Shown: positions 14,085 to 48,100 of the stretch, piece by piece
Layout of the letters: every line of letters starts with the position of its first letter
Numbering within the stretch: the first letter of the stretch is position 1
Assembly (NCBI GenBank): GCA_003993805.1
Contig: RSEF01000001.1
Span: 59,902,204 to 59,966,203 of the forward strand
DNA length: 64,000 nt
Origin: Himantopus leucocephalus
Lineage: Eukaryota; Chordata; Aves; Charadriiformes; Recurvirostridae
Direction of reading: 5' to 3'
The notes under the pieces: model-generated
Databases searched by the model: none
Told to the model about the DNA's origin: nothing
What the model saw: only the letters and a program-made list of their open reading frames with translations
Program-made: the position numbers and the translations under genes

Positions 14085-15138
14085 ATGGATGGCACGGATG
14101 AACCTCAGAAAAAAGTCTTTAAAGCACGAAAAACAATGAGAGTAAGTGATCGACAACAACTTGAAGCAGTATATAAGGTTAAAGAGGAGCTATTGAAGAC
14201 AACTGAAGTTAAACTGTTAAATGGAAAGCATGAGAATGGAGATTCTGATTTAAATTCCCCTTTAAGCAATACAGACTGTACGGAAGACAAGAAGGAAGTT
14301 AATGGCCTAGTGGACTTGTGTGTTAACTCTGAAGAAGGAAGAACAGCTTCTAATGAAATTAGTGAAGCCAAAAGCCCTGAAAGTAGGACAGGGAACGTAG
14401 TCAATGACATAGAACCCAAACCTCTAACGCTGTCTCCAGAAGATGTTACTCCTGAGCAAGAAAAAGAAACTGATACTGCTTTAGCTTGTGAGGCTGAAAA
14501 TGGAGTGCTTGGTAGCAATAAAGATAACTTCCATGAAGAAAATAGTACAAAAGATCATTTGGACCAAAGAGAGAATGACATCCCATCAGAAGGTGAAAGT
14601 AAATCAACCTGTGATATTAGTGACTCTTCTGAAGAGAAGGGAGAAACAAATGACTTAACTATTAATTCCAGTTCATCTGTTGAGGAAAAGAGAACTGAAG
14701 AAGTAACTGTTGAAGATGCTGTTGGAGAAGAAGCCATCTCTAGCAGTATGGAAGCTGACCAGGAACCAAAGGACAAACAAGACAGCACTGCAAGTCTTTC
14801 AGAAACCACTGTTCAGAAGACAACAGATGAGCCAAGTGAAAGTATCTTGGGCAATAATGACTCGATGGAAACAGATGAAATTATTCCAATTTTGGAAAAA
14901 CTAGCCCCTGCTGAAGATGAACTGAGCTGTTTTTCTAAAAGTTCTCTGCTTCCAGTCGACGACACAGTCACAGATTTAGAAGAGAAAATGGACAACTGTT
15001 TGGGTTCACCATCCAAGCAGGAAAGTAATGAAAGTCTGCCAAAAGAGGCTTTCTTAGTACTGTCTGATGAAGAGGATCCCTGTGATGAGAAGGAGGAACG
15101 TGCTGAAGTGATATTACCCAACAAGTCAAGTCTTCCAG
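14085..15138 (+). CDS. ATF7IP: ATF7IP first coding exon (N-terminal acidic region)
   Basis: The exon begins at 14078 after a poly-T and AAG acceptor, and the ATG at 14085 has A at -3 and G at +4, a strong Kozak context. An in-frame ATG further upstream (from 14025) lies before the acceptor and is intronic. It encodes 351 codons plus one base. The first 40 residues are nearly identical to human ATF7IP, the middle is a low-complexity Glu/Ser/Asp region, and the end carries conserved blocks such as SMETDEIIPILEKLAP and KEAFLVLSDEED. The donor CAG/GTAAGA follows at 15138, phase 1. Long antisense frames here are shadows. Confidence 0.95.
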
Positions 15139-18100: not shown

Positions 18101-21100
18101 AGAGCAACAGGGAAAGATGATGGAATTGCAGAGTAATTTTAATTCAACCCTCTGATGGTATTTATTCCAACCTCCTACGCAAAGTAGGTCCAATCATATC
18201 AGATGGCTGGGGGACCTTGACAGTTTACTTTTGTGCATCTCCAAAAATGGATATACCACAACTTCTTCTTGGGTAGCCTAATACTTAACCAACCTCAAGG
18301 GTGAAAAATTTTCTGCTTAATTGGAATCTTTGGTGTTCCAACTTGTGTCCATTGCCTCCTGCCCTGTTGCTGTGCTCCTTAAAGAGTAGTAGCTCCATCT
18401 TCTCTCTGCCTTCCCATTATGTAATGGAAGGCAACGATACAATTTCCAATTAAACTTCACTTGTTAAGATTGAGCAAAGCCAGTGGTGTCATCTGCTCAT
18501 CATAGAGCACGTACTTCATCCCCTTGACCTTTCTGGTGACCCTCTGCTAGACTTGCTGTGGTTTTGTCCGTGCCTTTCTAGTACTGGCGATCCAAAAACT
18601 GGACATAGTGCTTCAGATGGGGGTTTCTCAAGTGCTGAACAAAGGAGAATCACTTCCCTTATCCTGCTGGACACATTTCTTGTTAATATGTCATGAAATG
18701 CTATTGAACTTATTTCACGCTGATGACTAATGTTCAAATTGTTTTCCACCAGGAATCAAGGCCCTATAAAGTTACATTCCATCCAGTCAACCCCCAGCCT
18801 GTCCCATTGCATAGGGTTATTCTGTGCCAGATGCAGGACTTTGTATTTGCACTTGCTGCACTTTGTGTTGGTCCATTTTTCCAGCCTGTCAGTGTGCCTC
18901 TGAATTGCAGCTATGCCCCGCAAAATATTTACCACTCACTCAGGTTTGTACCTGCAAACTTGCCAACGGTGATCTCCTGCCCACAGGTCCAGGTCATTAG
19001 TAAATACAATAAACTGCATCAGCCTAATATGGATCCCTGAGGACTGCCTCTAGTACTAAGCCACTAGCTGGACTATATGCCACTGATGCCAATTGTTTGA
19101 GCCCATCCTAAAAAGCTACCAGGTCTGTCAGGCATGATTTGGAGTTACTAAATCCAAGCTGACTAATTCCAGTCACCTTCCTCTCCTTTGTGTGCCTGGC
19201 AGTGGCTTCCTATGAGGATTTTTTTCCATAACCTCCGCAAGATGTCAGGTGAGGCCAACCGGTCTGTAGTTTCCCTGAATCATCCTCCTTGACTGTCTTG
19301 AAGATGGCTGTGACATTTCCCATTTTCCTGTCATCAGGAGCTTCCCTTGATGCCATGAAGATGGTAGACTGGGGCTTTACAATGCCAGCAGCCTACCTCC
19401 CTACGAGGTAGTTACGGAAGCCCTTCTTACCCTTCACATCCCTCACTGGCTTCAATTCCAGTTGAGCTTTGACTTTTCTTATTCCATTCCAGCACAAACG
19501 GACAATGTCCCTGTGTTCCTCTTACTTACTTCCTCCTCCTGTGTCATTCTTTTTTATGTTGGGCTTCTGTCAGGAGGTACCTATTCACCCATGCTGGCTT
19601 TCTTCTGTGCTGGCTCTACATTCTGCACATTGAAATGAACCGTTCTCATTCTTTGAGGAAGCTGTCCTTGAAGAACAACCAGCTCTCCTGGGTCCTTTTG
19701 CTTTCCAGGGCAGCTCCCTTTGGGATACTACCAAGTAGGGCCAGAATAAGGTGAAATCTGCTGTCCTGAGAGCAAGGACTGTAATAATATTTGTCCTGCT
19801 GACATCTTGCAGAATTTTTAATTCCACAGTCTCATGGTTACTGCAGGTCAACCTACTCTTGACCTTCATGTCCCAGACCAGTTCTTCCTTGTTTATGAAT
19901 AAAAAACCCAACAGGGCATCTCCCCTAGTTGACTCATCAATTGCCTGTGTCAAGAAACTTCATCACACTCCAGAAACCACTTGGGATTGTGCCCAATCGT
20001 ATAGCCCATCCAGTTAAAGTACACCCATGAGTCAGTCCTGAAGCCTGTGATTGCATGAGATGGCTCTATTGACTTTCTGTCCTTGATCAAGTAGTCTGTA
20101 GTGAGTGCCTAGCACAACATTGCCTGTGTTGCTTTGCCACCTTCTCCTTGGCCACAAGCACTCAACTGGCTCATCACCTGTCCCATGACAAAGCTCTGGG
20201 CCCTCCTCTGCATAAAGCACAACGACTGCTCACGCTTTCAGCCTGTCTTTCCTGAAGAGACTGTGTTCCTCCTCTTGTTTCTTGTGCTGCATTTGTTTGT
20301 GTCCTGGTTCTGGCAGGGATAGGGTTAATTATTCTAAGGATCTGGCACGGAACACAGATATTCTCCATACCTTGTGACGCCATGCCCAGTCTGTAGTGGG
20401 GAACTGGCCAGGGGAGGGGGCAGGGGCAGGAAGTCACTGCTTGGAGCTGGCTGGCGCTTCCCAGATCTGGTTGGTGAGCTGTGGTACAGTAATTGTGTTT
20501 GTACATTCCTCTACCAGTGTTATTGTTGTTGTTTTCCTCTTTCCTTTGCTGTTCTTTTAAACTGCCTGTATCTCAACCCCTGAGTTTTGCCTTTGTCTTC
20601 CGATTCTCCCTCCCTCCCTGCTGTGCGGGGTTGAGTGAGCGGCCACATGGGTCTTTGTTGCTGGCTGAGGCTAAACCACAACAGTCCTTTTTGGCACCCA
20701 AGGTGGGGCTCGAAGGGCTGAGATAATGACAGATCCAACTGGAGCCTGTTAAAACAAATTTGGTATGTGCATTTATTGTATTAGTTAAATAGTCGCTGGT
20801 CACAATGTTGCTTTGTTTGCATGGCTGTGTTACGTAAATTCTTATGTCCTATGTACTCCCCATGATGCTGTTTATCACCTCTGGGAGAAGGATCAGGATT
20901 ATCATTTTGCTGTCCTGTGTAATATCATTTTATGATATGATAACATCACTGTTCAGGCAGTTGTGTTTGGGGTGTTTATGCAGCATTGTTGTCCTGCCCA
21001 TGCCTCAGGCACCATCTCAGAATTTATTAATAATCACACCCAATCTGGGGGGAAACAGATGGGGATACTTTCCCCAGCTCTTTCATCTCCCTTTTCTCCT

Positions 21101-24100
21101 TCAGGCCAGGTATGACAGCTTTTGAGAATTTTGAATATTCTTGGGATGCTCAAACCAGCATGGTCCTATTTCTTTGTCTCCTGAATGTGTTTCAGGTCTT
21201 GTTTAGGGTTAAACAACTGTTTAAGACTACTATCCAGAGATCTGCCCCGAGTCTGGATAATCATGGGTGGCGTGGCATGTGGGAGAATATGGGCAGGTAT
21301 CTAGAGAACTTCTCACCTCCAAGGGTTTGGGACTTCACACCCGAACAACTACAGGACCCTGATAAAGTGATAGAATCACTTGAAAGGAAAATGCTGTGGC
21401 TATTCCAGAGAGGCACAACTTACTGCACTGTGCTGGGGCCTGGCCAGTATCTGCCAAATGCTGCTCAATATTATGCAGCACCCTCAGGGGAAAAAGGAGG
21501 AAACCAGACCCAGACCGGCAGGCACTGCGGCTACTCCAGCCCCTAAAGCAGGTGCTGCAGCTGCTCCAACCCCGGTGACAGGCATTGCAGCTGAACCCAG
21601 CAACCAACCCATGCTGGTATCAGTTGGTCCTATACAGAAGAAGAAACACACCAAGAAATCAGTTTGCTTCATAAGGGGTGATGATTACCCAGGGGCATCA
21701 CAAGAGCAGGAGGAAGAGCCAGAACCAGAGATAATCAGTGGATCGCTATCCCTGAGTGAGCTGCAAGATGTGCAAAAAGATTTCAGCCGACTTCCTGGCA
21801 AGCTCATTGTCACCTGGCTGCTCCGATGCTGGGATAATGGAGACAGTAGCTTGGAATTAGAGGGCAGGGAAGGGAAGCAGCTGGGATCCCTGTCTAGGGA
21901 AGGGGGCATTGACAAGGCAATTGGGGAAAAAGACACAAGCCCTCAGCCTCTGGAGGCAACTCCTGTCAGGAGTGAGGGAAAGGTACTCCTTCAGCAAAGA
22001 TCTATGTATGTCATCCAAGCAAGTGGACCACCGTGGAATCAACTGTCCAGTACCTGAGAGAATTAGCCATGAGCGAGATGATATATTATGACCCAGACAA
22101 TGCACAGCTACCCACAGATCCTGATGAAGTCTGACGCACAAGGCCCATGTGGTGGAAGTTTGTATAGAGCGCACCGTCATTGTATGCCAGCTCCTTGGCA
22201 GTGATGGAACGGAAAGGCGAAGAAGGACCAATGATGGATGAGGTAGCTGGCCGATTTCAGTGATATGAAGAAAGTCTCTCTTCCCCCCTCATCTCAGCTG
22301 TGGAGAAACTGTCGTGGAAGGTCCAGCAACTTGAAAAGAATATGTCCTACTCGCCACCTGTCCAGGCCAGTATCTCAGCTACTAGGAGCGGGTGTTTCTC
22401 TACTCAAAAGAGAGAACATAGAGGGTACACACCACAAGGTGCCCTGTGGTTTTACGTGCAAGACCATGGAGAGGACATGAGGAAGTGGGATGGACAATCT
22501 ACCTCGATCTTACAGGCAACATGGGTTGCAAGGAAGAACAATCACAAAAGGGGATCCCTCTAGGAAAAGTGCCACTCCAGTTTTCAGTGGGCAGTTCCCC
22601 AGACAGAGTAGAAGGCCTGATCTTACCTCTGATCCTCTTGAAGGGACTTCCAAGTAATTTCTGCAACAAGCGAGTAACAGATACTCTGACCAGGATTAGA
22701 GGGGCCCTGCTTCCAGCAAGGGGGGGAAAGGGACAACCAAGTTTATCGGGCTATGTGGATTCGATGGCCTGGCACATCAGACCCACAGGAGTATAAGGCT
22801 TTAGTAGACACTGGTGCAGAGTGTACCCTAATACCATCAAGCTATAGAGGGGCAGAACCCATTTGTATTTCTGGAGTGACAGGGGGATCCCAAGAGTTGA
22901 CTGTATTGGAAGCTGAATCGATCCTAACTGGGAATGACTGGCAAAAGCATCCCATTGTGACGGGCCCAGAGGCTCCATGCATCCTTGGTATAGACTACCC
23001 CAGGAGAGGATATTTCAAGGACTCAAAAGGGTACCAGTGGGTTTTTGGCATAGCTGCCTTGGAGGTGGAGAAAATTAAACAGCTGTCTACCTTGCCTGAT
23101 CTCTCAGAGGACGCTTCTGTTGTAGGGTTGTTGAGGGTCGAAGAACAACAGGTGGTGATCACTACCACAACGGTGCATTGGTGGCAATATCGCACTAACT
23201 GAGACTGTCTGATTCCCATCCGTAAGCTGGTTCATCAACTAGAGACTCAAGGAGTGATCAGCAAGACCCGCTCCCCCTTTAATACTCACATATTGCCAGT
23301 GCAGAAATCTAACGGAGAGTGGAGGCTAGCAGTGGACTATCATGGCCTGAATGCAGTCACGCCGCTGCTGAGTGCTGCTGTGCCAGGCATGCTAGAACTT
23401 CAATATGAACTGGAGTCAAAGGCAGCCAAGTGGTATACAACAATTGGTATTGCTCATGCATTCTTCTCAATCCCTTTGGCAGCAGAGTGCAGGCCACAGT
23501 TTGCTTTCACTTGGAGGGGTGTACAGTACACCTGGAATCATCTGCCCCAGGGGTGGAAACACAGCCCCACCATTTGCCATGGACTGATCCAGACTGCACT
23601 GGAACAGGGTGAAGCTCCAGAACATGTGCAGTACATTGACGACATCATTGTATGGGGCAACACAACAGAAGTTTTGGAGAAAGGGAATAGAATAGTTTGA
23701 ATCCTTCTGAAAGCCTATTTTGCCATAAAATGAAGTAAGGTCAAGGGACCTGCACAGAAGATCCAGTTTTTGGGAATAAAATGGCAAGATGGATGCCCTC
23801 AGATCCCAATGGATGTGATCAACAAAATAGCAGCTATGTCTCCACCGACTAGTAAAAAGGAAACACAAGCTTTCTTGGGTGTTGTGGGTTTTTGGAGGAT
23901 GCATATCCCAGATTACAGTCTGATTGTGAGCCCTCTATATCAAGTGACTCTGAAAAAGAACAATTTTAAATGGGGCCCTGAACAATGACAAGCCTTTGAA
24001 CAAATTAAGCACGAAATGCTTCAGGCGGTAGCCCTGGGGCCGGTCCACACAGGACAAGATTTTAAAAATGTGCTCTACACCACAGATAGGGAGAATGGCC

Positions 24101-27100
24101 CTACCTGGAGCCTTTGGTAGAAAGCACCAGGGGAGACTCAAGGTCAACCCCTAGGGTTTTGGAGCCAGGGATACAGAGGATCTGAAGCCTACTATACTCC
24201 AACTGAAAAAGAGATAGGCAGCATATGAAGGGGTTCGACTTGCTTTGGAAGTGACTGATACGGAAGCACAGCTCCTCTTAGCACCTCGACTGCTGGTGCT
24301 GGGCTGGATGTTCAAAGAAGGCGTCCCTGCCACACGTCGTGCAACTGATGCTACATGGGGTAAGTGGATTGCACTGGTCACACAGCGAACTCAAATGGGA
24401 AACCTGAGTCGCCAAGGAATCTTGGAAGTGATCATGGACTGGTCAGAGGGCAAAGATTTCGAAGTATCACCAGAGGAGGAGGTGACGCGTGCAGAAGAGG
24501 CCTCACCGTATAATAAATTACCAGAAAATGAGAAGAAATGTGCTTTGTTCACTGATGGGTCCTGCCAGATTGTGGGAAAGCATTGAAAGTGGAAGGCTGC
24601 AGTGTGGAGTCCTACCTGACAAGTTGCAGAAGCTGCTGAGGGACAAGATGAATCAAGCCAGTTTGCAGAGGTGTAAGCCATCCAGCTAACTCTGGATATT
24701 GCCGAACAAGAAAAATGGCCAGTACTTTACCTTTATACTGATTCATGGATGGTGGCAAATGCTCTGTGGGGGTGGTTACATCAGTGGAAGCAGAGCAACT
24801 GGCAGCACGGAGGCAAACCCATCTGGGCTGCTGAACTGTGGCAAGATACTGGTGCCTGGATAGAGAATCTGGTTGTGAAAGTATGTCATGCAGATGCCCA
24901 TGTACCCAAGAATCGGGTCACTGAGGAACATCGAAACAACCAGTAGGTGGATCAGGCTGCTAAGACTGAATTGGCTCGGGTGGACCTGGACTGGCAACAT
25001 AAGAGTGAATTCATAGCTTGGTGGGCCCATGACACCTCAGGCCATCAAGGAAGAGATGCAACATATAGATGCGCTCGTGATTGAGGGGTGGACTTGACCA
25101 TGGACATTATTGCACAGGTTATCCATTAATGTGAAACGTGCCGCAATCAAGCAAGCCAAGCGGTGAAAGCCTCTTTGGTATGGAGGACAACGGCTAAAAT
25201 ATAAATATGGGGAGGCCTGGCGGATTGATTATATTACACTCCCACAAACCCGCCAAGGCAAGCACCATGTGCTCGCAATGGTGGAAGCATACCCTGTGCC
25301 CATGCCACTGCCTGGAACACTGTCCTGGGCCTTGAAAAGCAAGTCTTATGGTGACATGGCACCCCAGAGACAATTGAGTGAGACAATGGGACTCATTTCC
25401 GGAACAGCCTCACAGATACCTGGGCCAAAGAGCATGGCACTGAGTGGGTATATCACGTACCCATCATGCACCAGCCTCTGGGAAGACAGAATGATACAGT
25501 GGGCTGTTAAAAATTACACTGAGAGACCTGGTCTGGTGGTCCAGACTCAGCTGGCTCTGATGCCTGTGTTAATAGAAGATTTTCCTCTTCATGTGCCCAT
25601 CAGTGCTATACCTGTTCAGTAACTGCGGATTAGCAAGTAGAGAGGGAGTCTTCATTGTGTCGCTGGAAGTCACAGGCTTCTTACATCCTCCATTTTGAAT
25701 ATCTCCATTTGTTACTATTTTGAATATAGCCTCTATCTGTCCCTACTTCCTTGTACTATGGGGCTTGGGGTTTTGTCTGTGCAGAGTCATAGTTTATCCC
25801 CACTTTGTCCATTCTACGCAGTTAGCTTATCTCTTCCTACAGCTTCTTCACTTTCTGACTCAGATCAGAGAGAGAACTTTTAGGCGAGGATGGACTGTAT
25901 TTTAGAGTAGGCTCTTTCAGCCTGAAGATGGAGGAGAGATGTGACAAAGGTCTGTAAACAGTAAGTGGTATGGAGAATGGATATTTGCTGTCTTTTCCTC
26001 TACAAGAACCTCATGTATCAAATGGAGGAAAGCAAAAAAGTGAGAGGCAGGATCAAGGCATAGAAGAAGAGATGGCTCTCCATGTGGGAGCTATGGAGCT
26101 CCTTGCTAGCAACACTGTGACTGCTAAAAGTTTCCCTACGTTTGTCTTCTGTGCAAGAGGAATTTTTTTGAGGGCACAGAATCCTTAAGGCTCTGGAGGT
26201 TTTCCAGCAGCAATTTTTCAGTAAGCTGAGGAAGTTTTCTGGGACTGTGTAACTGTGTTCTTTTCTCCTCCTTAATGCTTCCCTGCTTGATCATCTGCTG
26301 TTGACATGAAAGTGGTGGAGATAGGATCCTGGGTTAGGCGAACTGTTAGTTTTACCTAGTGCATCTGTTGCTATGTTCTCTTACCTAATCTATAAACTAT
26401 CAAGTTCGACTAGGTGAGGATGTGTACCAAAGCAAATCTGAAGTCTTTCTTTCTCAGAATTGCTAGCACTTTGAGTGCATTCTAGACACCTTGATTCTAG
26501 GCTTCTCTACAGCAATGGCATTTCATGCCCTTCAGGAATAGTTTGAAAGAGAACTTATTAGTGATCTTTGTTAAGGGAGTCTGAAGTCAACCAGCACACC
26601 CAAGTACAACCTTTTAAGAATAAAGAGTGCAGTTAACATTTAAAAGAATACGGCTTGTCTTCTAGACAGCAGTGTTTGAAGAGAACTTCAGAGCATGTGA
26701 ATGGCAGATAAACAACTGAACGTGAACTTTTGTTCCTGTGTTGTTATAGAATTAGCTGTCAAAATTCTTGAATTCACAAACAGGAAAATGTTATGCTTAA
26801 ATGGCACCAATGAAACCACTTTTCTGCAATACTATTTCTATTTCTGGTCTTTACTTCAAAAAGGGATAATAGAAGGCTTTCAAAGAGTTGCTGTAAAAAA
26901 TATTTCAGCATTTGGGAGACTTTATACTCGAAAGCTTAGAAGAGCATAAGTTTTGTTCATCCAGTAAAAGATTAAGGAGGTCTATAGTATCTGCAAACGG
27001 GAGCTGAATATATGATGAAAAGAAGTTTCTTAAATGTAGCAGACAAAAGACACAAGTGCTGCATTTTTGATCCACTGGATTTTGCAAACCAGATATCAGG

Positions 27101-30100
27101 CACACTTCTGTCCAACAGACTTAGAAGGACCGATTAATGGATGTTTGATTCATCAGTTGTAATTGTTAAGTCCTTTATGGATTTTTTTCCACTAAAAATG
27201 TAGTATTAATAACTAAAGAAGAGAATATTGTGCTTTGTGTCTGAATCAATTAATAATTTTTATATAAATAGGCAGGGGGAGTTGTAGCCAAATAATAGAG
27301 TAGTGCAGGTTGGGAGGGACTTCAAGAGGTCCCTAGTCCAGTCTCCTGCTCAAAATAGGGTCAGTTGTGAGATTAGACAAGGAAGCTCAGAACTTTATCC
27401 AGTTAGGTCTTGAAAACTTCCACTGATGAAGACTGGATGACCTCTCTGGGCAATCTGTTCCAGTGACTCTCTTCATGTTGGAAATGTTTTTCTTTCTATC
27501 AGTTGGAATCTCTTGTCTCTCATCCATTGCCATGCACCTTTACAATGAGTCTGACTCCATCTTCTCAAAAGTCACCTTACAGGTATTGGAAAGCTATTTT
27601 TAAGTCCCTATTAAGATTTCTTCTCCATGCTGAACAAGCCCAGCTCCCTCAGCCTCTCTTAGAGGTCATGTTCTCCAGCCCCTTAACAGTCTCTTGTTCC
27701 TTACCAAGAGATGGCATAATGAGTGCCACATAAAGGGCAATAACCACTTCCTATGATATACTGGCTCTGTTCCTGTAAAAGTAGCACAGGAGGCTGTGGA
27801 CATCTTTTTCTGCCAGGGCACACTGTCTTGGCTCATGCTTTGCTTGCTGTCTATGTGAGTCCACAAAGCAGAGCTGCTCCCCAGCCATGCAGGCCCTAGC
27901 CTCTGTCATTGCAAGGGTTCTCCTTCCCCAGGTGCAGATTTGTCCTTGTTAAGTATCATAAAGCATTTGTCATCCCGTTTCTTGAGCTCGTCTAGGTCAT
28001 GATGATTCCTTTAAAAAATATACGAATCCATGATTTCTTTCTAAAACAAAAATAGTCAAATCCTGTCATGTTTCATGGGAAAAATCTGTATTTCTGTTTT
28101 GTAATAACTTTTGAGTAGAATTTGATCAAAGATGCACTACTTAGAAAGGCTGTGCTTAGAATCAAAGAATCGCCTAGGTTGGAAGGGCCCTTTAAGATCA
28201 TTGAGTCCAACCGTCAACCTAATGCTGCCAAAACCACCACTAAACCATGTCGCTAAGTACCATGTCTACCCATCTTTTAAATAACCTCCAGGGATGTTAA
28301 ATCCACCACTTCCTTGGTCAGCCTGTTCCAATGCTTGACAACCCTTTTGGTGAAGAAATTTTCCCTAATATCCAATTTAAGTGTCCCCTAGTTCAACTTG
28401 AGGCCATTTCCTCTTGTCCTGTCACTTTTTACTTGGGAGAAGTGACCAACCCCCACCCTGCTATGCTTTTGTACTTTCTTGTGATTGCTGTCTGTACACA
28501 TCCGTTCTAGCCAATCTGTGAGAAGAATGTTGTGGTTACAGGATTATGGAATAGTGGGAGTATTACTATGCAGTCCAGAGTAACTTGCAAATACTATGTG
28601 CTATGAATATTACTTCTTGCATAAATTAACAAAATGAAAAATCTCGTAATTTCAGTTTTTGGTTTTCTGACTCCTTCCTTTTTCTGATTTATTAGGCGAC
28701 TTATTTTAAATCATTCAAAAGTTCTTCATAATAGAAGAAAAAGTGTTAAGAGAGCATCAAGCATATCTTCGTAGCCAGAACTTTCTCCAAAAAAGCTAGT
28801 AAACTCTGCTGTAATAGCAAAATGAAAGCAGGAAATTGGAGAAGTGTACAGTTCAAGATGTGCATAGCAGTGCTGAGTTGTTCTGTTATATTCTGGATGA
28901 ATGTTAATGTAATCTTAATAGTTCTACATTGTATCTAGCAAGCACAAGAGGTGGCATATACTGCCTGTACCAAACACATAATGGAAGTTTATGGAACATA
29001 TAATAAAAGTTTTCAGGAAGCGTTAGCATTTTTCATTTTAACCTGTGTGCATTTGGGGGTGTTATTTCAGATTTTTCTTTATTTAAGAATTTCTTAAACT
29101 GTATGTTTTTAAATGACTAGCTTTAAATTGTGATACTTTGTATTAGGAAGAAACTTTAAATGAAAATTCATGTTTGTTAAGAAGAATCTAGGCCTTTTTA
29201 TACCATAAAGGTTATGGGTGAATTTGCCACTTGTAAATAACTAGGAGAACATATTAGTATTTTGTTACTGAAATTTTTATACTTTTTTCCTAGGTGAAAA
29301 ATCAACTAAAATAATTCCTTGAGAACTTTAACTACATTAAAAATACATGGTTTTTTTCAGAGGTAACTTTGAGGCATTCTGTTGATTTTTAAAGCTAAGC
29401 AAACTTAGAAATGAATCTTACTGCGTTGTATGGTAGTTCAAATTCTTCTGAAGTTGTGAAGGTTTCCTCTGATTTTTTCATCTCTATTTCCTCTGTCTCA
29501 TACTTATTTCTCTCACCTTCCCCAACACGGTTTTTTGTAAGTATTCCAAGTTCACTAGTTGAAATGGGACTCTTACGAGACTTTTGTAGGTCAGTATAAG
29601 TAACACGTGGGGTTTTTTCTTCTGTTTGTAGAAGAGGTGGAAGAGGAGAGACAGAAGGAGAGTGAGGAGCATAAAGAAGAAGAGACCCAAAAAGAAGAGG
29701 AGAAACACACAGAGAGAAGTATGTAATGTTAAAACTATTACGCTTCACTGGTGGCATGTGTGAGAAACAGAATCATGGAGGTTGGAAGGGACCTTTGGAG
29801 ATTATCTCGGCCCTATCCCCTGCTCAAAACCAGGTCTACTAGAGCAGTTTGCTCAGAACCATGTCCTGACAGGTTTTGAGTATCTCCACAGATGGAGACT
29901 TCACAGCCTTGCTGTGTTCCACTTCCAGTGTTTGACCACCCTCACAGTAAAAAAGTTTTTAAAGTTTGAATGGAATTTCCTGTATTTCAATTTGCATCCA
30001 TTTCTCTCGTCATTTCACCGGTACTCACTAAGAGTCTTGCTCTATCTTTTTCACTCTCCACCCATCCAGTAATTTACACATATTATAAAATCTCTTCTAA

Positions 30101-33100
30101 CCACCTTCTCCAGTTGCATAATGCCAGCTGTCATTTCCTCATAGGACAGATGCTCCGGTCCGTAAAACATCTTGGTGGCCCTACACTGAACTCTCTCCAG
30201 TATGCTAACATCTTTCTTGTATTTAGAAGCCCAGAACTGGACACAAGACTCAAGGTTCAGTCTCACAGCGCTGATCAGAGGGGCATAATTACCTCCCTTG
30301 ACCTGCTGGTGATACTCTTCCTCAGGCAGCCAAGGATGTTGTTGGCCGCCTTTGCCAACGGGGCACATTGCTGGCTCATGTTCAACTTGATGTGTATGAA
30401 GACCACCAGGGCCTTTTCTGCAAAGCTGTTTTCAAGCCATTCATTTCCCAGCCTGTACTAGTACATGGGTTTATTCCTACCTAAGTGTGGGACTTCGCAC
30501 TTCCTTTTTCTGAACTTCATGAGGTTCCTGTTTGCTTATTTGTCCAGCTTGTCAAGGTAACTCTGAATGGCAGCATAACCATCTAGTGTAGCAATCACTT
30601 CTTCCAGTTTTGTATCATCTGCAAATTGCTGAGTATGCCCTCTATCCCGTTATCTAGGTCATTAATGAAGATGTTAGTGTTGGTACCAGTATCATCTTCT
30701 GGTGTATGTTACTAGTGATAAGCTCCAACTGGACTTTGTGCCACTAATCACAACTCTTGGAGCCCAGCAGTTGAGCCAGTCCATTTATCTAGGCCACATA
30801 TCATGAGTTTGCCTCTGAGGATGTTTCGGGTGCCAAAAGCATTACTAAAGACAAGGTAAGCAACATCTGTTGCTCTACCCCTCATCCACCAAGCCAGTCA
30901 TCTCATTGTAGAAGGCTATCTGGCTGATGAAGCATGATTTCCCCTTGATAAATCCATTCTGACTATTCCCCATCACCTTCTTCGTAATACGCTTAGAGGT
31001 GATTTCTAGAATTACTTGCTCCGTCATGTTACCAGGGATTGAGGTGAGGCTGACCATCCTGTTATTCCCTGTGTCCTTCTTTCCCTTCTTGAAGATTAGA
31101 AGAAAGCAGATGTCACTCCTGTCCTCAGGAACCTTATGCTATTGCCACAACCTTTCAGAAATTGAGAGTGGCCTTGCAGGCACTTCAGCCAGCTCCCTCA
31201 GCACTAGTGAGAGCATCTCTCTGGCTTGGATGGACTTGTGTATGTCCAGTTTGTTTAAATGTTAATGCAGTGCTCCTCCCCTGACAGCAAGTCTGCCTTT
31301 GCTCTAGCCTGTCTCACTGGTCTCAGGGAGCTGGCATTACTGAAGGCAAGTCTTCTCATTAAAGCCTGAGGTAAAGAAGGTATTGAGTGCCTGGGCTTTT
31401 TCTGTGTCCTTTGTCACTTGCTCCCCTGCCTCATTCAGCAGGGAAGATGTATTTTTCCTAGTTTTCCTTTTGCTGCTGGTATACTGATAGAAGCCCTTCT
31501 TGTTGCCCTTCATGTCCCACACCAGATTCAGCTTGAAGTGAGCTTTGGCTTTCCTAACCCCGTTCCCACCCACGTAGTGCCTTTATCTTTCTCATAGGTC
31601 ACCTGTCCATAGCAGACAGGGGCCTTCACCCCCTGCAGGCAGGGAGTCACTTGTTACTAATATGTGGTGCTACTGCATGGCTCAGGCTTAGCCAGTTCAG
31701 ATGTTTCACTGGGCACAGCTCCCAGCCCTGTATCTGCTGTGAGTGAACTGAACAAAATCTGTCATTGTCCTATACATTTGCAGGCAGAGTGGGAGCTGCC
31801 GTCCTGGTGCTTCTGGCCTTTGTCATCATGGGAATCTCTATTTCCCATCTGGATAAGCTCAGGCTCTGACTGTACCCCCTCTGGTACAGCTGGGGGTTGC
31901 AGTTTCTACGGCTGCAGGATCTTGGAGTATATCCAGTCAATCTGTTTCTCACCATTTCTGATGCTGTGCCATCCCCTGACCTCCTCTCATAGCTCCTTTA
32001 ACTTGGCAACACAGCTCTCCCACTAGTTTGCACCTTCTGTAGCCAAGAAGCTCATCTTCCTCTGCCATAGCCTCAGTCAGAATGGGAGGCCATAGATAAT
32101 CCCTGCAGCTGCAGATTTTCGAAGCCACATCTTCCCCCAAAATAGCTGTCTGGGTGGAGGCTCTGACATTACCGGGCTGCTGGAGACCACACCATGTGGC
32201 ACATCACCACCATTACAGAGTGTAGGGACCATCACCTTTCTGTGCACCCTGCTGTTAAAAGTCCTGTGTCTGTTAGCTGCTCTCTGGGAGCTGGTCTCTA
32301 GGCCCAGCAGTAATAAAGGTCTCTCCCTAGTGCCTGCTGAAAGGGTGTTTGAGCCTTCATCAGGAATCAGCTGGAACATGAGCACAAAGCTCCCTTTGAT
32401 CGAGAACAGCTGATGCAGGTCATTAGAAGCTGCTAGAGTTTCCCAGAAGTCACAGCCTTTCCACCAGTAGTAAGCACCCTGAAACTCTTCAAAGAGAATC
32501 TAACTGCAATAAAATTAGATGTAGCATCTGCTTCAGAATAAGTTAGCTGAACATTAAATGTGTTCTGTTAAGTATGTTCTGTTAAATAGGTAAGTAGCTC
32601 TTGCATGTTGCAGACTACTTGTTGTACTGTTCAGTGGTTAGGCTTTTTCTAAAAAGACTGACTGGGAGCAGGAAAGAGTTGTATGGAAGATTCTAATAAA
32701 CGTTTCATTACTAGTCTGGGAATAGTCTTCTAACTGTTCAGATTTATTTTTTTTAATTTTATTCCTACAAGCTTTTCTGATGTATGGAAGANTTTTTTTT
32801 TTTTTTTTCTTCATTTTCCACTGTTTACTGTCAATCTTTAAAAAAAAAAAACCTCATACCTTAGACATTTATATTGCTTGCAAATATTCAGCATTCTGCA
32901 AATGTTTATGAAGAGCCCTGTAGCCCTATAAAACGTACCTAAAAATGAGGACCTACACTTTCACAAACTTTTAAAAATAACCTAGATTGTTGTGCAGATT
33001 TTAAAATACTACCTTTTAATAATTTTTAGTAAAATAGTGCCTTTTCAGTGCAACTCACAAAAAAAAAAAATCAGAAACCATCAGAAAATCAGATCAGACT

Positions 33101-36100
33101 GAAACCGTGAGAAATCTAACAATCCAAAAATCAAATTATAAGAAATTTTTGAAGTTAGAAATGTAACTTACAGAGTGTATGTAATACAAGTAAAGAAAAA
33201 ATGGCAGTGGAAAGTAACTATTTCTTATGCTGGTTCAGTCTTCAGTGAATCTTCATTGATTCTGTCTTTCTGTATCATACTCAGGTTTGGGGTGGAGGGG
33301 GTGGGGGGTATGGTCTTTGGTGTTTTGATGGTGGTCAGATACCCACAGTATACTCTGTAGCTTCCCTTCCTGAAAATTTATCTATGCGTGTTATTTTATG
33401 TGTGGATCTCTAGACGATACAGTGCCAGGAGCTGGAGGAGTGAATGAGGTCTCTTTGGTTCTTTTGTGCTTGATCACTGTGATGACAATGACTTTATAAT
33501 ATACTTCTGAGCCGGTTCTTTTGTTAGATTTTCGCTTTCCTTCTTACCCAACAAGTAAGAAAAAGGTTTGAATGTTTTTTTCTGTCAAGGATTGGAGGTG
33601 CAGGTTAAAACTTCATGGCAGGTAGAAAAAAAGTTCATTGCTGACACAGGCAGTATGTGATGAGTTTTATTTGGCTGGAATCCTGATAAGAGGATTCCTT
33701 TTTCAGAAGGGGGTTTTGTTTTGCTTCTTAGAAGCCGTATTTAATTATAGGATGGTGCTGATGGGAGCAGGAAGAACTGGAGGCAAGTTCTGGAGAAGGG
33801 GATGCTGGTACTACAGCCATTTTGCATTTGGGGCAGTGGTTTGGCAAATCACAAAGCAGAACTCGCTAACAGGACAGCAATGTACAGAGACCAAAGGGAG
33901 TGTTCTGCTTTGATGTCATCAAACATCTTGTTTTTCCAAAAGCATTCTTACTGGTTTAGGATGAAAAAGCTTAAACTGGGGACAAATGGAACTTGATAAT
34001 AATCACAGCATTCTGCAGATACTTGTTTTTTCAAAGGTTCCTCACAAGCAATTGTATCTAACTGTTCCAGGTGAAGTGTCAAGGAGAAAGCGTTCCAAGT
34101 CTGAGGACATGGACAGTGTTCATTCTAAACGTCGTCGGTACATAGGAGAAGATTATGAAGCAGAACTCCAAGTAAAAATTACAGCCAGAAAGGATGTTGA
34201 CCAGAAATTACAAAAGGTAGAATGGAGGTGCAGAGCAAAGATGGCAAACATACCTATCGCTTGTCTTACCATATTTGAATTAGCTATCCTTTCCCACACA
34301 CTCCCTGCCCCCCCCCAAATAATTTCTCTTTTATGTGGTTGAAAATTGGACATACTTCAGATAACTTCAGGTGGCTTCATTCATATTAAGTCCCATATAC
34401 CCCTGCTTTTAAAAGGAGACCAAATATCATTTGAAAACTATACTGCAAGAGTTAAATTTGAAATGTGTTAAATATTTAAACTCTTAAGTCTCATGTGACT
34501 ATAGATGGAGAATCTTAGCAATGGAGGTATTTAAGTGTGGTAAAGCTTTATGTATGGTGCGCTTTATTGTGTGCCTAGCTTTAAAGAAAGTGTGTCTCCA
34601 AACAGGAGTGCAATCAGCATAGCATTTTGCAGATTTTTATAGAGCTGTCAATTGCCTTATTGCACCATTGACACGTAAAGAAACCTATGTCCTTGAAAAA
34701 AAAAATGTGCCCTTTTTCCATTAGTTAGTTAACTAGTGCGTGTTGTAACTTCATTAATGTAGGATGCAGAAAACTGAACCATATTTTTGTTTCTTGTTCA
34801 TTTTTGTTTCCTAAGGAAAATTTTTGCACTGCAATAGGTATAGGAGGGAGAAAAAAATGAAATAAGTGTATCACGTAAACTTTGTGGAAATTGGTCTCTT
34901 TTTTTCCATTTTTAGCTTTTGTAAGAAAAGCAACACAGGACATTTCTGCTAGGAGAAAATGCATCTCAGAAATAAAGATTTGTTGAATGTCTTTAGTTTC
35001 TGTTCTTTGAATGCCAGTGTCCATCTAGAGAACAGAAAAGTAAGAGGAAAAATTAATTTGTCTAAACACAGCACTTCAGGAAAATACCTTCTGTTGTTAA
35101 TGTTCTTTTTATATGTAATAAGGTTTTATATACTTATACTGCAATTAAATTAATTTCTTGAATTAATGGCAAAGAGGGACTGTTTTTATTTGCCAAAATA
35201 GATGTAGAAACTTTTCTTAGTTGTGCAACCACATGCTTATTGATGACTATAGATTTATTTGATTGACAGGGCACAGCTGTTGTATCCTGCTGCTAACAGA
35301 ACAATGACTTGTTAAGAGTTGAGAATATTTTTATAGATGGTCTCCCAAATTCTGGGATTGCATTATTTTTCTTTTTTTTTTTTAATAATAATAATAATTT
35401 TGCAGGTTATCCAGAGACTGTTAGAAGAAAAACTTACTGCTTTACAGTGTGCTGTTTTTGACAAGACTCTGGCAGACTTGAAAACCCGAATAGAGAAAGT
35501 AGAATGTAACAAGAGGCATAAAACTGTGCTTACTGAATTACAGGTGAGTGTGTGTGTGTTGAACATACTGGAGTCAAATTTAAAAATAAGTTCCTCAACA
35601 TCTAGTAGTAAGTCAGCTGTAGTTGTCAGTAGGGAAGCCATTTTGACTTCACAAAGGGAAGGAGGGGGAAGCAACAAATACTAATGTTGCCCTTGAGTTG
35701 TAAAATTCTAATTCCCTACTCAGCAAGGAAAAAGCAACCAATTAATCATCAAAAAACCCCAAAGCAAATCTTCCTTCAGGCAAACTGCTTCATTAGCTGT
35801 TAGCAAATCTGTTTTTCTCTGTTCTGCTCCATTTAGACATTTTTCAAATAAATGTTAAGTATGAAAATATCTAATGCCTCTGTGAAGCCAGAAATTTGCT
35901 TAAAAAGAGAAAAGTGCAGAAAGCAGAAGACAATAGCACTGGACTTTGTAGAATGTTCAAAGAAACATCACGTGCTACTTAGTCGTGATATTTCCCCAGA
36001 AACTAAATAATTATGGTCCAGCAAGGAAGGAAATAGCTAGTGTTGAATGCAGTATGCTTTCTTGCATTCTTTGTAGAAGTGGTGTACATAGCGGTGACAG

Positions 36101-39100: not shown

Positions 39101-42100
39101 CAGTCTCTCAGCTGCCAAGAAGTGAAACACATGACTCACAGGCCATTTTTTGTACTTGATCGTAGTGGGGTGCTGATATCTTCCCCTCTACCTAATGGCT
39201 ACAGAAGTTGAGTGGGGAACTAAAGAAAGTCATAAGCCCCATTTCATAAGGGAATCGAAGTTGAAAAATGGAATTCCTAGATTAGAATTCTATAGGTAGT
39301 GTAGAATCAAAATTACCATTAATTACATTCATTCTAGCCACACCATACCTGGTTTTAAAAGTAGTTTACCTAATATTGAATGCTGAATCTTTTCCACAGA
39401 ATAATCTCAGACTGTGCGTATACTGGCTTTCTGTAGTGTATTATGCTCCTGATCTTTAGATTTAATCCCGAAATTTTGTTGCATAAAAGCGAGTATCTTC
39501 TCTGACACATTAATCCTTGGTTTCAGTAGAACCTTCTGGATACAAGGTCCTACCTATACAAAGCAAGTTTGTCATGACTGCCTTAGTTTTTCTTGTGTTT
39601 TCTGAAGTACCAGTTGTTCTACCATTTCTGTAATGAGTGTTTAAAATGCTATATTTAATGTGTTTTCAGCAGTTAAATCTTGGGTCTTTTTTCAAGCCTG
39701 TTTGTCTCATAGTATATCCTAATTTTTTTGCCATTTATACATAGTTCTTTCAAACAGAAATACAGTATTGACTGTATCTTCAGTTAGGCTATTGAATATC
39801 AGAGTGTACAACAGAAGAAGAGTATCTATAGCCTTTCTTTGAAAAAAAATTTAATCATATACCACATTTTTCATACACTCATAGAATGGTTTGGGCTGGA
39901 AGGGACCTTTAAAGATCATCTAGCCCAACCCTTCTGCTGTGGGCCAGGACATTTTTCACTAGATCAGGTTGCTCAAAAGCCCTGTCCAGCCTGACTTTGA
40001 ACACTTACAATGGTAGGGCATTCACAGTTTTTCCAGACAACCTGTTTCAGTGAGACACAGCCCTCATCATAAATTGTTTTCATTTGTTGTGTTGGAGTGA
40101 AACTTCCCACTTGCTTCAAATACTTAGTTCTTTTGTTGGCTTTTTTTGTTTGTTTGTTTGTTTGGTGTAGTGCCAGCTTCCAGTCTTGCTGCTCCTGCAA
40201 CAATTGTCAGTGGACATCCTAAGCCTCAGACTCCAGTGACCTCCACCAGCTCTTTGACAACAACGGTTCTTCCCGCAGCTAACACAGCTACAGTTGTAGG
40301 CACTAACCAAGTGCCCAGTGGCAGCACTCAGTCAGTGTCTGTCTCATTGCAGTCATTGCCTGTAATCTTGCATGTACCTGTTGCAGTGTCATCCCAGCCT
40401 CAGCTCCTGCAAGGCCACACAGGGACTCTGGTAACTAACCAACAGTCGGGCAACGTTGAATTTATATCCGTACAAAGCTCATCTACAGTTGGTAGCCTTA
40501 CCAAAACTACAGTGTCTTTGGCATCAGCTAACCCAACTAAACCAAATAACAGCCCATCTCTGCCCAGTCCTGGTATTCAAAGGAACTCTCCAGCCAGTGC
40601 TGCGTCAATAGGCACAACATTGGCAGTACAGGCCGTTTCTACTGCACATCCTGTTGCCCAGGCCGCAAGGACTTCTTTGCCCACAGTGGGTACTTCAGGA
40701 CTTTATAATGCTACCAGCAGTCGAGCTCCCCTACAGATGAAGATTCCCCTCTCTGCATTTAGTAGTACAGCTCCTATTGAACCACCCACCATTACAGCGC
40801 CCAGAGTTGGTAAGTTATGCTTGAATGTTGACACTGGGAAAGGAAAATAGTTATCAAAGGGAAACACAAAACTCCACTCCTGTGGAAATTGCTTTGGTAA
40901 TTTCATTGAGACGTTCCTTCTTGGTTGCCTTTCTGTTGCAGTTGTCAAGATCAAAATCAGCTCTGTCATAGATTTGTTTCAGCCATTGTTGAAAATCGTC
41001 TCTCCTTAGAAGGAGCCAGCAGTGTGGCTCTGTAAGATTTGTTTTATTTAGAAGTTGATTTATATCATTGCTAGCATGAAATCAGAAACTCCAGTTCTGC
41101 CATTGACAACTTGGTATATTATTTTTAATACAGCATCTAAGCAAAGACATACTGAAAGGAAAAGTATAATCATTAACTTAATTTTCACAACACTTTCAAC
41201 AAAATGGGGGGAAAAAACACAACTGAATACTAACCTAGTTCCAAAGAAGTACATTTATTGTATTTAATATGAGGTCTCTGAACACAACGAATGTTCAAAT
41301 ACAGTATCTAGATTACTTACTTTAAAATACTTTCTTTCCATCATTGGCCATGCCATGATGATTCTCTGCACTTCTGATTTTACATACCTTGACATTTTTT
41401 TTCTAAGAGGTCCTCAAGATTTCTAAGAGAGTTGGTATTATAGCAAGTTTCTCACTGGCACAATATAATGCTAAAATGAACTCAAGCAGAGCTTGACATC
41501 AGAAATAGTTTTATTTCATTTTCCCACCTCTAAGTTACCTATGTTAAAATGCGTCTTCCATAGAGTTGGACGGTTATATGTTTTGTATTGACTTTTAGCT
41601 CTAAAGCTGATATAATGATTTAATACAACATAAAAATGGTTGTGACAGATCAGGCACAGTGACCAAAGGAAGGGCCTATGTGTCCAAAAATGTCTCATTT
41701 TCTGCAGTTCACATAACCTTAGTGTATATCCTAGTAGTTTTCTCACCAGAATTAAAACACTGCTTTGGGCCAGCACAGTTGCTAATAAGCTGTGGTTAAA
41801 ATGAAAAGGAATGAGAAAGGAGAAATTGAATTTAAACTTTTACATCAAATACTCGAGCAACTTGTGCTTAAGTTGCTAGTGTAGATACATGTTTGGCTGA
41901 GCTAATAAAGATACTCAGTCTCCCTGCACAAATCATCTCAGTTATGTATTTTGAAGTCTGTTTAACAATCCTTTGTTCAGTCAAATTTTTGTACAAAAAT
42001 GTTGAGTAATGGTAATTTTTTTCAGTTTAATATCTTGTTAGTTTACATACATAGGGAGGAGAGGTTGGAGTTATGCTTTATCCACAAATAAGTGAAGGAA

Positions 42101-45100
42101 TTGTTGATAAAATATTTTGAATACACTGTCAGACTTTCAAGGAAGGGAACAGGTACTGCTTCTAGGCTGGAAAGTGCTATTTTGCTTTTCTGTATCTTCT
42201 GTTCCCTCTGGAAAATGGTAGTAATCAAGCTTGAATATTTATAATTGAAAATTAGGGCTAAAAAATGTTAAATGTGCCACATACTGAATGTTATCAAACA
42301 ATTTTGAATATTGCCTCCAAATTTGTGTAGTGGATAGCAGTATTTAGTACTGATTAGATACTGCAAATGAACAATTTCTTGACCCCTCAGAAAACCAGAC
42401 AAGCAGGCCGCCAACAGATACTTCGGCAAACAAGCGAACTGCTGAGGGAACAACACAGGTAGGTTGTTGATTATGTTCCTATATAAAATTCTAAAGTTAC
42501 AATCCACAGGACAAAAGTTCTTTACCTTTTGCTCATAATGAAACAATTTTAGTTTCTTTTTTGTGCCATCCTTTCTAGTTTCTGTCCATTTGTATTTTTC
42601 TTCTTCTTCTGATCCAGTGTATTACTTGGAGCATGAGCTTCTGATTATCTTTTCAGAAGTTTTCTGATGGGGTTTATGTAAATAGATGAGTTAGTAATTC
42701 AGGAGCACACTAAAAACTTGTCTGATACAACAGAGCTAACATACAAAAGAAAACTCTGCCCAGTTTTTGTCTGAAGGGCTCGAACTTAAAGCTACAAATA
42801 CTTTACAAAATTATTGCAGCTGTCATTTCCACACTAATCCAGAAGTTAATAAGAATCAGGGTTCTAACATTTCATTGCCATATGTCATAGAAAAAAAAAA
42901 AGGAAAAGAAACTTCCTTTAGGAGTAACTACTTCATGATAAACTTGCAGTACTTCTGGATTCCTCGTCTTAAGATTTGTTGAAATTTCTTTGTAATTTAA
43001 AGGTTGACATTAAGCTATTTAAAATTATTCATAATTAATTTTATTATTTCTGCATACAGATATTCCACAAAGCACCTCATAGTTACATTGCCGTTAACTG
43101 GAAGTTGTTTTATTAAGGAGTGTAAAATTAATTTCTTCTAGCCAAAATTCCCACATTTAGTAGTGTTTCAAGGTGCAGTTAAATCTGAATTGTGTTTCAA
43201 AGCAAGAAGAAAATATACTGGACAAGATTCTTGTTTTCACCTGTCGCAGAAATAGTCTGGCAAAGATAACCAGTACTATAAGAGTATAAACTGTGCCTCA
43301 CTCTACCTTTTTATTAAGGCATTTCATAAAGAATGGTTGTTTGGAACTTCATTTTTCAAAGATACCTGTGGATTATAGCTATTAAAATGTTTGTCAGTAC
43401 TTCATATGTAGAAAATTCAGTACCAGAATGGATGACAGATACACGGTTTTAAGATGTAATTTTCAATATAAGCTGCGTATTTTGGAATTCTTCTTCTTCA
43501 GTAGAGCCTGAAAGCCGGAAAAGATGTTGGAAAAACAGATTGTGTGTAATAGTGGTATTTAGCAATGGAAGGTGAGCAAGGAGGGAAATAAGACACATGA
43601 TGCTTTCCGGTTTTCAGTCTTCTGTTATAGTGTATGTTTCTAGGTTTGCTTTCAGTCAAATCAGTTAAAGCATGTGTAATGCCATGGTTAATAAAGAAGA
43701 ACCTGATGCATTTTAATTGGCTAGTGAGGTATGGAATTGACATGCCGTATCATTTGAAAAATCCAGTTAATGCCACCTGCTTTTTGTTACGTAAAATCCA
43801 AAATATTATGTATTACTCCACACTTCACAGCTCTCAGAACAAAAAGTAGTTCGCTGTGTGCCGTATACCTGTGGCATATTTGATGGTACAACTTTGATCA
43901 ATTGTTTCGAAAAGCAGTTGAAACAGGAAGAGACTTCATCAGAAAATAAAGAAGCGGTAGAAGCAGCACAGACGAATTTTAACTTCCCCGAGGATGTCCT
44001 CTTTGGCTTGGAGGAAGAGGAAGAGGATGCTAAGAGCATCAAAAACACCCACAAGCAGACTGGCTGGGCAGCTAACCTATTAAAACAATGGCTGGCCAAA
44101 AATGGCAAGGATCCTAGCTTTGAATTGGTCCCAGTAAGTGAACTCAATGAAATCTTAAGAGAGTTTTATTACACAGTAAGGAATCATGATGGAAATACCT
44201 ACAGTGTGGCAAGCTACAAGTCAATGCGTGCTGGCTTAAACCGGCATCTCAAAATGCCACCTTATAATCGTCAGATTTGCTTAATGAAGGACAAAGAGTT
44301 TGCTAGTGCAAACATGGTATTTGTGAGCGTGCTGAAGATGCTGCGCATGCAGGGGAAGGATGAGACTCACCACCATCCTCCTATAGCTGCTGAGGACTTG
44401 CGTAAGATTAAACAATCTGGTGTGCTGGGATTGCACAGTCCACTGGCGCTCGTCAACAAGGTGTGGTTTGATTTGCAGTTGCATTTTGCCAAACGAGGGA
44501 GGGAAATTTTAAGAGATCTGGCTCCAGATGCTTTTGTTGTTGAGAAGGACAAGAACGGGCGTCGATATGCTATGTTTAGGTATCCTGGCAAAGGAAAAAA
44601 TGGAGAAGATCCTCATAAAATGGGTAAAATGTATGATATGCCAGGGGACCCAAACTGTCCTGTTTTTTCCTTGGAGCTTTATTTGTCTAAGTTGCCTCCA
44701 GAGCCCCCTGCCTTTTACCTGCATCCTTTAAAGCTAACGTCAGAGCAAATGCAAGAACAGCCTGTCTGGTACAAAAGAGAACCGATGGGTGTGAACTACT
44801 TAGGTACCATGATGCCCAGGATAAGTGTGGCAGCCAGGCTGTCCCAACGATATACCAATCATTCTCTCCGAACTACCACCATCCAGCTACTGTGTGAAGC
44901 AGGACTGGGGCCTAGAGAAATAATGGCAGTGACAGGCCATCGCTCCGAGTCTGCTATCAGACACTACTGGGGAGCTGCAGAAGTTCGCTACAGGGCTTGG
45001 TCAGATATAATGGAGAATAACGCCCCCAGTTACCTATATAGCAAGATCCCAAATGAAGTGATAAAAGAATCGCTATCTGGTGCCTCCACCTCTTCTATAA

Positions 45101-48100
45101 ACCATGTTGTTCTAGAACAAAGCAAAGTTTTATTCCCTAAGAAATCTGTGGTGCCACCTGACACCAATTCTGTGACTTTAGTCCCTGAGGGACACCCAGC
45201 TCTGAATTCTAAAAGCCCTGTCTTGTTGAACCACAGTTCTTCCAAGGTGTTTCTCCCCAAGAACATGGCCAGTAGAAACCTAACTGCTGGTCCCCTTCAA
45301 GGCTGTTGTAACGAACCTGTCTTTATAAAGCGCGTGATAAAACAAGAACCAATGACTTGATGCTTCTGTAATGGAACTGTTTTCAAATGAATTGCTAAAA
45401 TGGAAAAATTATCAGATTTGTTTTTTCACTTGGTCTACTAACAAAGTTTCTTACGGTCTAGTTCAGCAAGAAGTATCCTGTTCGCACTCCTGAAGTGAGC
45501 TATGGAACAAGAAACTTAAACAGAGCAGGGCTTGGAGTTTGTATGACTTTTTGTGGCAGCTGGGACTCTAAGTGCTGAGCAGAGCTATTTTAAAAAAAAA
45601 TGAAAGGGAGATACTGATTTCCACTTAGCTGAAGAGCTACGCTTTCTTCACTAAGTGCATGGCTTTTATATTTTGTGAAGAGTGTATTTATTATACCATT
45701 TTGTGCCTGCTGGCACTAATGTAGCATCTTACAAATCAAACACTTGATTACTGAAGAGCATGGAGAAAGCAGAAGCTGAATGAAATAGACACAGATACAC
45801 TACAAATATATACATGTGCATGAAAACACCTGGAATTGCTTGACCACTGTCACCCTCTCTGTTCAAATATCAGACCTACCAGAGGATTGTGCCTTTTTTC
45901 CTTTTCTTTTTTTTTTTTTTATTCTTGTGAATTGATTTTTTGTGAGCTACAGATTTGTATTGCAGGTCTTTCCTTTTTCCAAATTAATATTTCTGGCGAA
46001 GACTTCAGTCATTCTGTTCTGCAAAGGCACTATTTGATACAAATTACATTAAAATTAGGATCTCTTCAGTTGTGCATGAAATGGGGAAAACGTTCTCAAA
46101 AAAGCTGAGAACAGGTTTGTTGCTTAAAAGGCAAGTAATTAGAGTTGAAGTGTTGTCTCTGTATGTGCTTATCTTGTGAGAGGTTTTTTTGTATTTTCTC
46201 TCACCTACCCCTTCCATTACATTTCACGTTGTCTTTGCACTGAAGTCAGTGTAGTCTTTGTCAGTATAGTGTGATTCACAAGAAGCACATCCTGTTTTCC
46301 CCACCAGACCCTATCCAAATGTGTTTTTTTGGTTTTAACTTCTTTAGATTAGTTCATTAGAGTAAACTGATCCTATCTTTACATTTTCCATAGGAGATTT
46401 TTACAGGTTAGAAGGTCTCAGGATAGTGTATGTGAATTTTGTCAGAGAAATGAAATTGTAGTTAAAAGGCTGTTAATGAAGAAAAATTAGAAATTAGGAG
46501 GGCTAGTAATAGTTCATTTTTAGTGAATCACACTTGCGAATCTAACTCACGGTTTGTCTCTGCTATTCTATGCCATGATTTCCACCATGATTTCTGCCAG
46601 AGATTCTGACAAATAGAGAGATCTTCCTGTAAATAAAAATGGTAAACTGGTCATCAGATCACAAATTATGGTAGGTCCACTTTGGAAGAAGGATCAGTGT
46701 AGCATTTAAAACCGTTTTCCATTATATTAACTGAATGAAATAAAAATGGCTTCATCCTTTTTAAATGCGTGTGTATATGTGTGTACACACACCCACACAC
46801 ACAGAGTTTATCACACTAAGGACTTCACTGGAAGTGTTTGTTGCTCAGCAGTGGACAAAATAGAGAAAAATCCCAGCTGAAATAACAAATTGACCGTGAT
46901 AGACTCTTAATTTTGTGGAAAACTTCCTTGGTGGGAAAGGCTTTCAAACACTGAATGAGATTTATCACTTTGTTGTAGTCTGAACAGAGGACGTGATGCC
47001 TGAACCTTGGAGTTTTTATGTTGGCTAATAATGTTTACCTTTGTGGCCTTGGGCAGGTTTTTCACACTTACTGCATCAAATTTCCAAAGTGTAAGACCAG
47101 CATAGTGTTCCATTTTCTGATGGATAATGTAAAAGATGAAAAGGTTTTGAAAGTGCTATATTCATCTTATGTATTGTGTTTACGGTCACTTTTATTTGCT
47201 GTTGTTATAATGTTATAATGATTGAGCAAGTTGATCAGCTATAATTGTTAATATAAAAATTACTTCTGCACAATCCTGCGCTTCCTTAGTTGCTGCATTA
47301 ACTTACGACATCAATGACTAAAGGAAGGAAATCATGGATCCAGGACTTTAATTTTGTCAAGCCTAGCGTAAATCAAATAGAAATGGTAGAGAAAATAATC
47401 CTTTCTCATGGCTAGAAAGAAGAAAAATTGAAAAAAACTAAGCGGAAACAGTTCTCAAAATATAGGAGAACTGTGCAGTAACTTATTCTAGGATATTTTA
47501 GAGTAACATGGATTTCCAAATTTTAGGGATTCATAGAATTCATAATTCAGCCAGACTGGCTAATTTAATTTCTTGTTTGAAGAGATATTTACTCTAAACT
47601 TTCACCAAGATGGGTATGTATTATTTAAAAATATATATATATTATATTCCTGACTTTGTCTCAGGTAGTTGCTCGTTCCAGCATACTGGCGTTGAACACT
47701 TATCCTGCAGAAACAAGAAAAGTGTGTTGCCAGGAGATGATTCCTTTTTGTTCCCTCTTGCTGCATACTGTGGTCATACTGACCACATGCCCTGCTCTGG
47801 TCCTAACTGCATCTAGGTAACTTACTGTAACAGCATATGGCTGATTGCTTCATTCCTTAACAGAAATCTAGTTGGTGATATAAATTGAAAAAGGGACTCT
47901 TTTGGCCAATCTGGGTGTGTGTCTGATTCCTTTCAATTATGATTTGGCTTCTAACTTGACTTCCATTCTGTTGGCTCATAATTGGATATTTTTGGCTTCT
48001 CATTCGTTAAATTCTAATTCTGTTGGCACCAACTATACAATGTCCTCTTACTACCTTCAGTTTGAACCTGATACTTCAAAGCTACTGACTGCAGTATTAC

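Follow-up and report, generated by a model that had tools for sequence, protein, structure and literature searches.

An intact Crypton-type tyrosine recombinase frame in an ATF7IP intron of a stilt: a candidate alternative last exon

Kojima and Jurka (2011; PMC3212892) demonstrated that the DUF3504 genes derive from Cryptons and gave ATF7IP a section of its own. The passages of that paper used here describe an intact recombinase frame in an ATF7IP intron of the zebra finch (ABQF01015803). The chicken copy is 97% identical to it but frameshifted, the turkey copy is likewise frameshifted, and the 97% protein identity between chicken and zebra finch spans about 107 million years. Partial copies occupy the same ATF7IP site in platypus, kangaroo, horse and human, the mammalian copies being broken or missing. 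Alternative splicing of the recombinase into ATF7IP was predicted in these passages, the fusion being backed by neither an mRNA nor an EST, and retained catalysis in some birds was raised as a possibility. According to the consulted parts of 'Paleozoic Protein Fossils' (2022; PMC9004415), the insertion dates to the ancestor of jawed vertebrates (gnathostomes), some nonmammal vertebrates, among them alligator and chimaera, have intact frames, and there is evidence that a few of the oldest fossils have a regulatory function. The relevant passages of other open-licence papers naming both ATF7IP and Crypton do not treat the ATF7IP copy, and no report of a fusion transcript appeared in the titles and abstract openings of the open-licence literature. 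The locus and the fusion proposal have been known since 2011, and the novelty implied by an earlier sequence-only reading of this DNA is lost, because the ATF7IP section of PMC3212892 makes the same proposal. Added here are the exact exon phases, the coordinates of the junction and a check of the catalytic residues.

The window, i.e. the whole stretch of DNA that was analysed, comprises 64,000 nucleotides of the stilt Himantopus leucocephalus. The recombinase segment and its main domain matches are located as follows.

43831 to 45360, plus strand: Crypton-type tyrosine recombinase segment, candidate alternative last coding exon; 509 codons and a stop; Pfam DUF3504 and Phage_integrase, PHROG integrases
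44413 to 44826, plus strand: Pfam DUF3504 match, E 2.1e-15; residues 207 to 344 of translated 43795-45357
44773 to 44970, plus strand: Phage_integrase match over the HxxR...GH...Y box, E 4.7e-5; residues 327 to 392 of translated 43795-45357

The open stretch starts at 43795 and runs to the stop codon at 45358-45360. From 43831 it holds the 509 codons and stop described before, and its first methionine is codon 132, preceded by 131 open codons. Under a first-order Markov model, a mean of 29.5 in-frame stops was expected for the segment. Open runs reached at most 187 codons in 2000 simulations of the segment under such a model, and at most 182 in the six frames of 30 simulated 64-kb windows. The other two forward frames of the segment contain 37 and 34 stops. 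Thus a chance origin of the 509-codon reading frame is excluded. The GC content of the segment was 45%, compared with 33% in the upstream stretch (42459-43794) and 36% in the 2.1 kb downstream; by codon position 1, 2 and 3 it was 51, 38 and 46%.

The score for DUF3504 was 57.6 bits with a curated Pfam cut-off of 29.7, whereas Phage_integrase with 23.7 bits stayed under its cut-off of 27.1. PHROG integrase families matched the C-terminal box of the segment with a best E of 1.5e-4. These families place the segment among the Crypton-type tyrosine recombinases, and the DUF3504 match bears out the origin claimed in the sequence-only reading. That reading had let the conserved domain begin around codon 70; the Pfam match begins at about codon 195. 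A weak match to the Pfam QRICH1 domain (E 0.25, far below cut-off) covered approximately codons 102 to 157, and PDB gave a weak, non-significant match of the segment to QRICH1 with an E of 0.14. Five other PDB matches with E of 0.4 to 0.62 were taken as chance. NCBIfam yielded no match and Rfam none at gathering thresholds. In the viral and prokaryote collections 18 and 56 stretches, respectively, matched a pattern, none of which was confirmed by tblastn. A single-sequence AlphaFold model of the segment had a mean pLDDT of 37.4, too poor for a comparison of folds.

Two SUMO-type psi-K-x-E motifs of the segment, LKQE (43918, residue 30) and IKQE (45337, residue 503), stand outside the recombinase core. 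The idea of a SUMO function was dropped because shuffled sequences gave at least two such motifs in 20% of cases.

Escherichia coli XerD, the catalytic roles of whose residues are known, served as the reference for catalytic positions in one pairwise alignment with the segment.

44494 to 44496, plus strand: codon of R222, aligned with XerD R148
44590 to 44592, plus strand: codon of K254, aligned with XerD K172
44860 to 44871, plus strand: codons of H344-S-L-R347, the HxxR motif in the XerD alignment
44938 to 44940, plus strand: codon of H370 (TGH), 23 residues past R347 as in XerD
44965 to 44967, plus strand: codon of Y379, nucleophile position, 9 residues past H370 as in XerD

All six tyrosine-recombinase positions (R, K, H, R, H, Y) matched XerD with R222, K254, H344, R347, H370 and Y379, the placements of R222 and K254 depending on a single pairwise alignment of distant proteins. 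By this alignment the segment carries the tyrosine recombinase catalytic set R, K, H-x-x-R, H/W and Y in order. The likeness to XerD and phage integrases thus comprises R, K, HxxR, H and Y as well as an identical spacing in the last box. The sequence-only reading had suggested a DNA-binding module and did not mention the catalytic positions. A DNA-binding role of the segment is possible, and the alignment indicates that the catalytic positions are kept too.

An intact frame with intact catalytic positions would also be expected of a recently inserted, mobile Crypton. This is scarcely credible in view of the orthologous copies at the ATF7IP site of zebra finch and chicken and the partial ones of platypus, kangaroo, horse and human reported in the passages of PMC3212892. 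We rather regard the segment as an old captured copy. It resembles the zebra finch recombinase of that paper in the gene, the intact frame and the proposed splicing into ATF7IP, and by gene, intron position and domain it appears to be the same copy.

The other captured Cryptons differ from it. KCTD1 isoform b is similar in that a Crypton recombinase was captured by a host transcription regulator; in KCTD1, however, the Crypton was inserted upstream of the host gene, whereas the ATF7IP copy lies inside the gene as a candidate last exon. ZMYM2/3/4, QRICH1 and KIAA1958 likewise carry the DUF3504 domain within a larger host protein. According to the passages of PMC3212892, the tyrosine and the second arginine are lost in all human DUF3504 genes and the histidine in all but KCTD1. 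KCTD1 accordingly lacks the tyrosine and the second arginine, both of which are present in the ATF7IP segment, and ZMYM2/3/4, QRICH1 and KIAA1958 lack all three residues, whereas the ATF7IP segment keeps the set. On the other hand, the latter genes show high conservation in vertebrates, while in mammals the ATF7IP copy is either disrupted or absent (PMC3212892, same passages).

The assignment of the host gene and its splicing frame is based on these features.

40128 to 40809, plus strand: upstream ATF7IP exon in an open stretch; Pfam ATF7IP_BD; GTAAGT donor, phase 1 end
about 40168 to 40170, plus strand: acceptor-like TAG, possible start of the upstream ATF7IP exon, the exact exon start not being fixed
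42391 to 42458, plus strand: ATF7IP exon of 68 bases; CAG before, GTAGGT donor after; phase 0 end
43828 to 43830, plus strand: candidate CAG acceptor opening the segment in the ATF7IP frame, from frame and splice reading
63720 to 63878, plus strand: coding-looking stretch, by eye a later ATF7IP exon; incoming phase 1 required; no Pfam match
46632 to 46637, plus strand: AATAAA, possible poly(A) signal for the terminal exon, by motif alone
46739 (AATAAA) and 46048 (ATTAAA), plus strand: further possible poly(A) signals, by motif alone

Pfam recognized ATF7IP_BD on the plus strand at 35385-35540 (E 3.2e-21) and in the open stretch 40128-40847 (E 9e-7), both upstream of the recombinase segment. 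The two stretches lie on the same strand as the segment, and we concluded from these matches that the host gene is ATF7IP, in agreement with the sequence-only reading. PDB held no match for the stretch 40128-40847, and the open stretch 14085-15158 had none in Pfam. Exon 42391-42458 reads ...NQTSRPPTDTSANKRTAEGTTQ. Its phase 0 end and the continuation of the same frame behind the CAG at 43828-43830, both claimed before, were confirmed on the sequence. Joining the exon that ends at 40809, exon 42391-42458 and the sequence from 43831 onward gave an open frame that reads ...ITAPRVENQTSRPPTDTSANKRTAEGTTQ|LSEQKVVRCVPYTCG... across the junction. The candidate acceptor is preceded by 13 pyrimidines in 20 positions, equal to the acceptor of exon 42391-42458, and by this reading is of moderate strength. 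The in-frame junction alone is weak evidence since it arises by chance in 1 of 3 cases. As for the regular course of ATF7IP, the required incoming phase 1 of stretch 63720-63878 implies, if this is a later exon, that one or more ATF7IP exons, entered in phase 0 and left in phase 1, were missed within 42459-63720. In the search for the exon following 42458, filtering by phase and splice score left 2 of 822 open candidates, neither of them convincing, and scans with other filters gave no candidate.

The sequence-only reading took the lack of an ATG in the first 131 codons as an argument for translation from upstream ATF7IP exons. The position of the first methionine stands, but the argument is weakened because Met132 precedes the Pfam-matched DUF3504 domain, and a start there keeps the catalytic domain. 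A separate gene inside ATF7IP might then have the segment as its main coding exon, with its own promoter and a small first exon or with Met132 as the start. It could encode a shorter protein that retains every catalytic residue, and the frame match to the ATF7IP exon would be the one-in-three coincidence. Yet for a start at Met132 the 131 open codons before it are superfluous. Furthermore, at 33% GC and a CpG observed/expected ratio of 0.27 the stretch 42459-43794 shows no CpG-island promoter. We therefore consider a separate gene unlikely.

We favor the view that the segment is an ancient Crypton recombinase in an intron of ATF7IP that was kept as coding sequence and probably serves as an alternative last exon. 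An ancient Crypton element would have inserted into the ATF7IP intron and its recombinase would have been kept as coding sequence in the stilt lineage. The donor at 42458 would join the acceptor at 43830. In the resulting protein the recombinase domain would replace the normal C-terminus of ATF7IP behind an N-terminal part that includes the ATF7IP_BD region. SETDB1 is the chromatin partner of ATF7IP. Through the fusion, chromatin partners of ATF7IP such as SETDB1 may be recruited to the DNA or the proteins to which the recombinase domain binds. The fusion transcript, the exchange of the C-terminus and the function of the fusion are all three inferred from sequence features. In favor of the fusion are a reading frame far beyond chance, the DUF3504 and integrase families, ATF7IP_BD upstream, the open joined frame and the six catalytic positions. 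The moderate acceptor, the chance of an in-frame match and the weak no-ATG argument speak against it, as does the fact that PMC3212892, in the passages used, knew no mRNA or EST.

The same lack of mRNA and EST, together with the broken or missing mammalian copies and the frameshifts in chicken and turkey (PMC3212892, in part), would also suit an untranslated fossil, the frame of which stayed intact through slow decay or through a regulatory role of the DNA; evidence for a regulatory function of some of the oldest fossils is given in the consulted parts of PMC9004415. However, an insertion of gnathostome age by the dating in the same parts, with 509 open codons where the Markov model predicts about 29 stops, points to selection on a protein. 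So does the finding that the protein sequences of chicken and zebra finch, about 107 million years apart, are 97% identical (PMC3212892, passages as above), and the six catalytic positions are kept. An untranslated fossil is in our view rather improbable. For the favored alternative last exon, the frameshifts in chicken and turkey and the decay in mammals imply that the segment is not essential across amniotes.

A further-reaching possibility is that the ATF7IP fusion has been a working site-specific tyrosine recombinase since early jawed vertebrates, under the silencing control of SETDB1, in some birds and reptiles. We judge this highly improbable. If true, a retained recombinase would set ATF7IP apart from the other vertebrate DUF3504 genes. 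RAG1 is a parallel for a captured recombinase with catalysis kept, and the gnathostome ancestor lived more than 400 million years ago. With the large number of bird genomes and RNA data sets that have become available, whether the fusion is made and recombines DNA can be answered directly. A captured recombinase that has kept its full set of catalytic residues since the gnathostome ancestor, as dated in the consulted parts of PMC9004415, would be rare.

Two other elements were seen in the window. An open stretch at 30054-30431 on the minus strand, which had no Pfam match at E 0.01, looks like a piece of a CR1-type LINE, namely the C-terminal portion of its reverse transcriptase. Upstream of the recombinase segment, positions 21034-25622 of the plus strand hold a broken endogenous retrovirus-like element, in which a protease-like RVP match (E 0.003, below cut-off) and the reverse transcriptase RVT_1 (E 7.2e-19) lie in separate open stretches.
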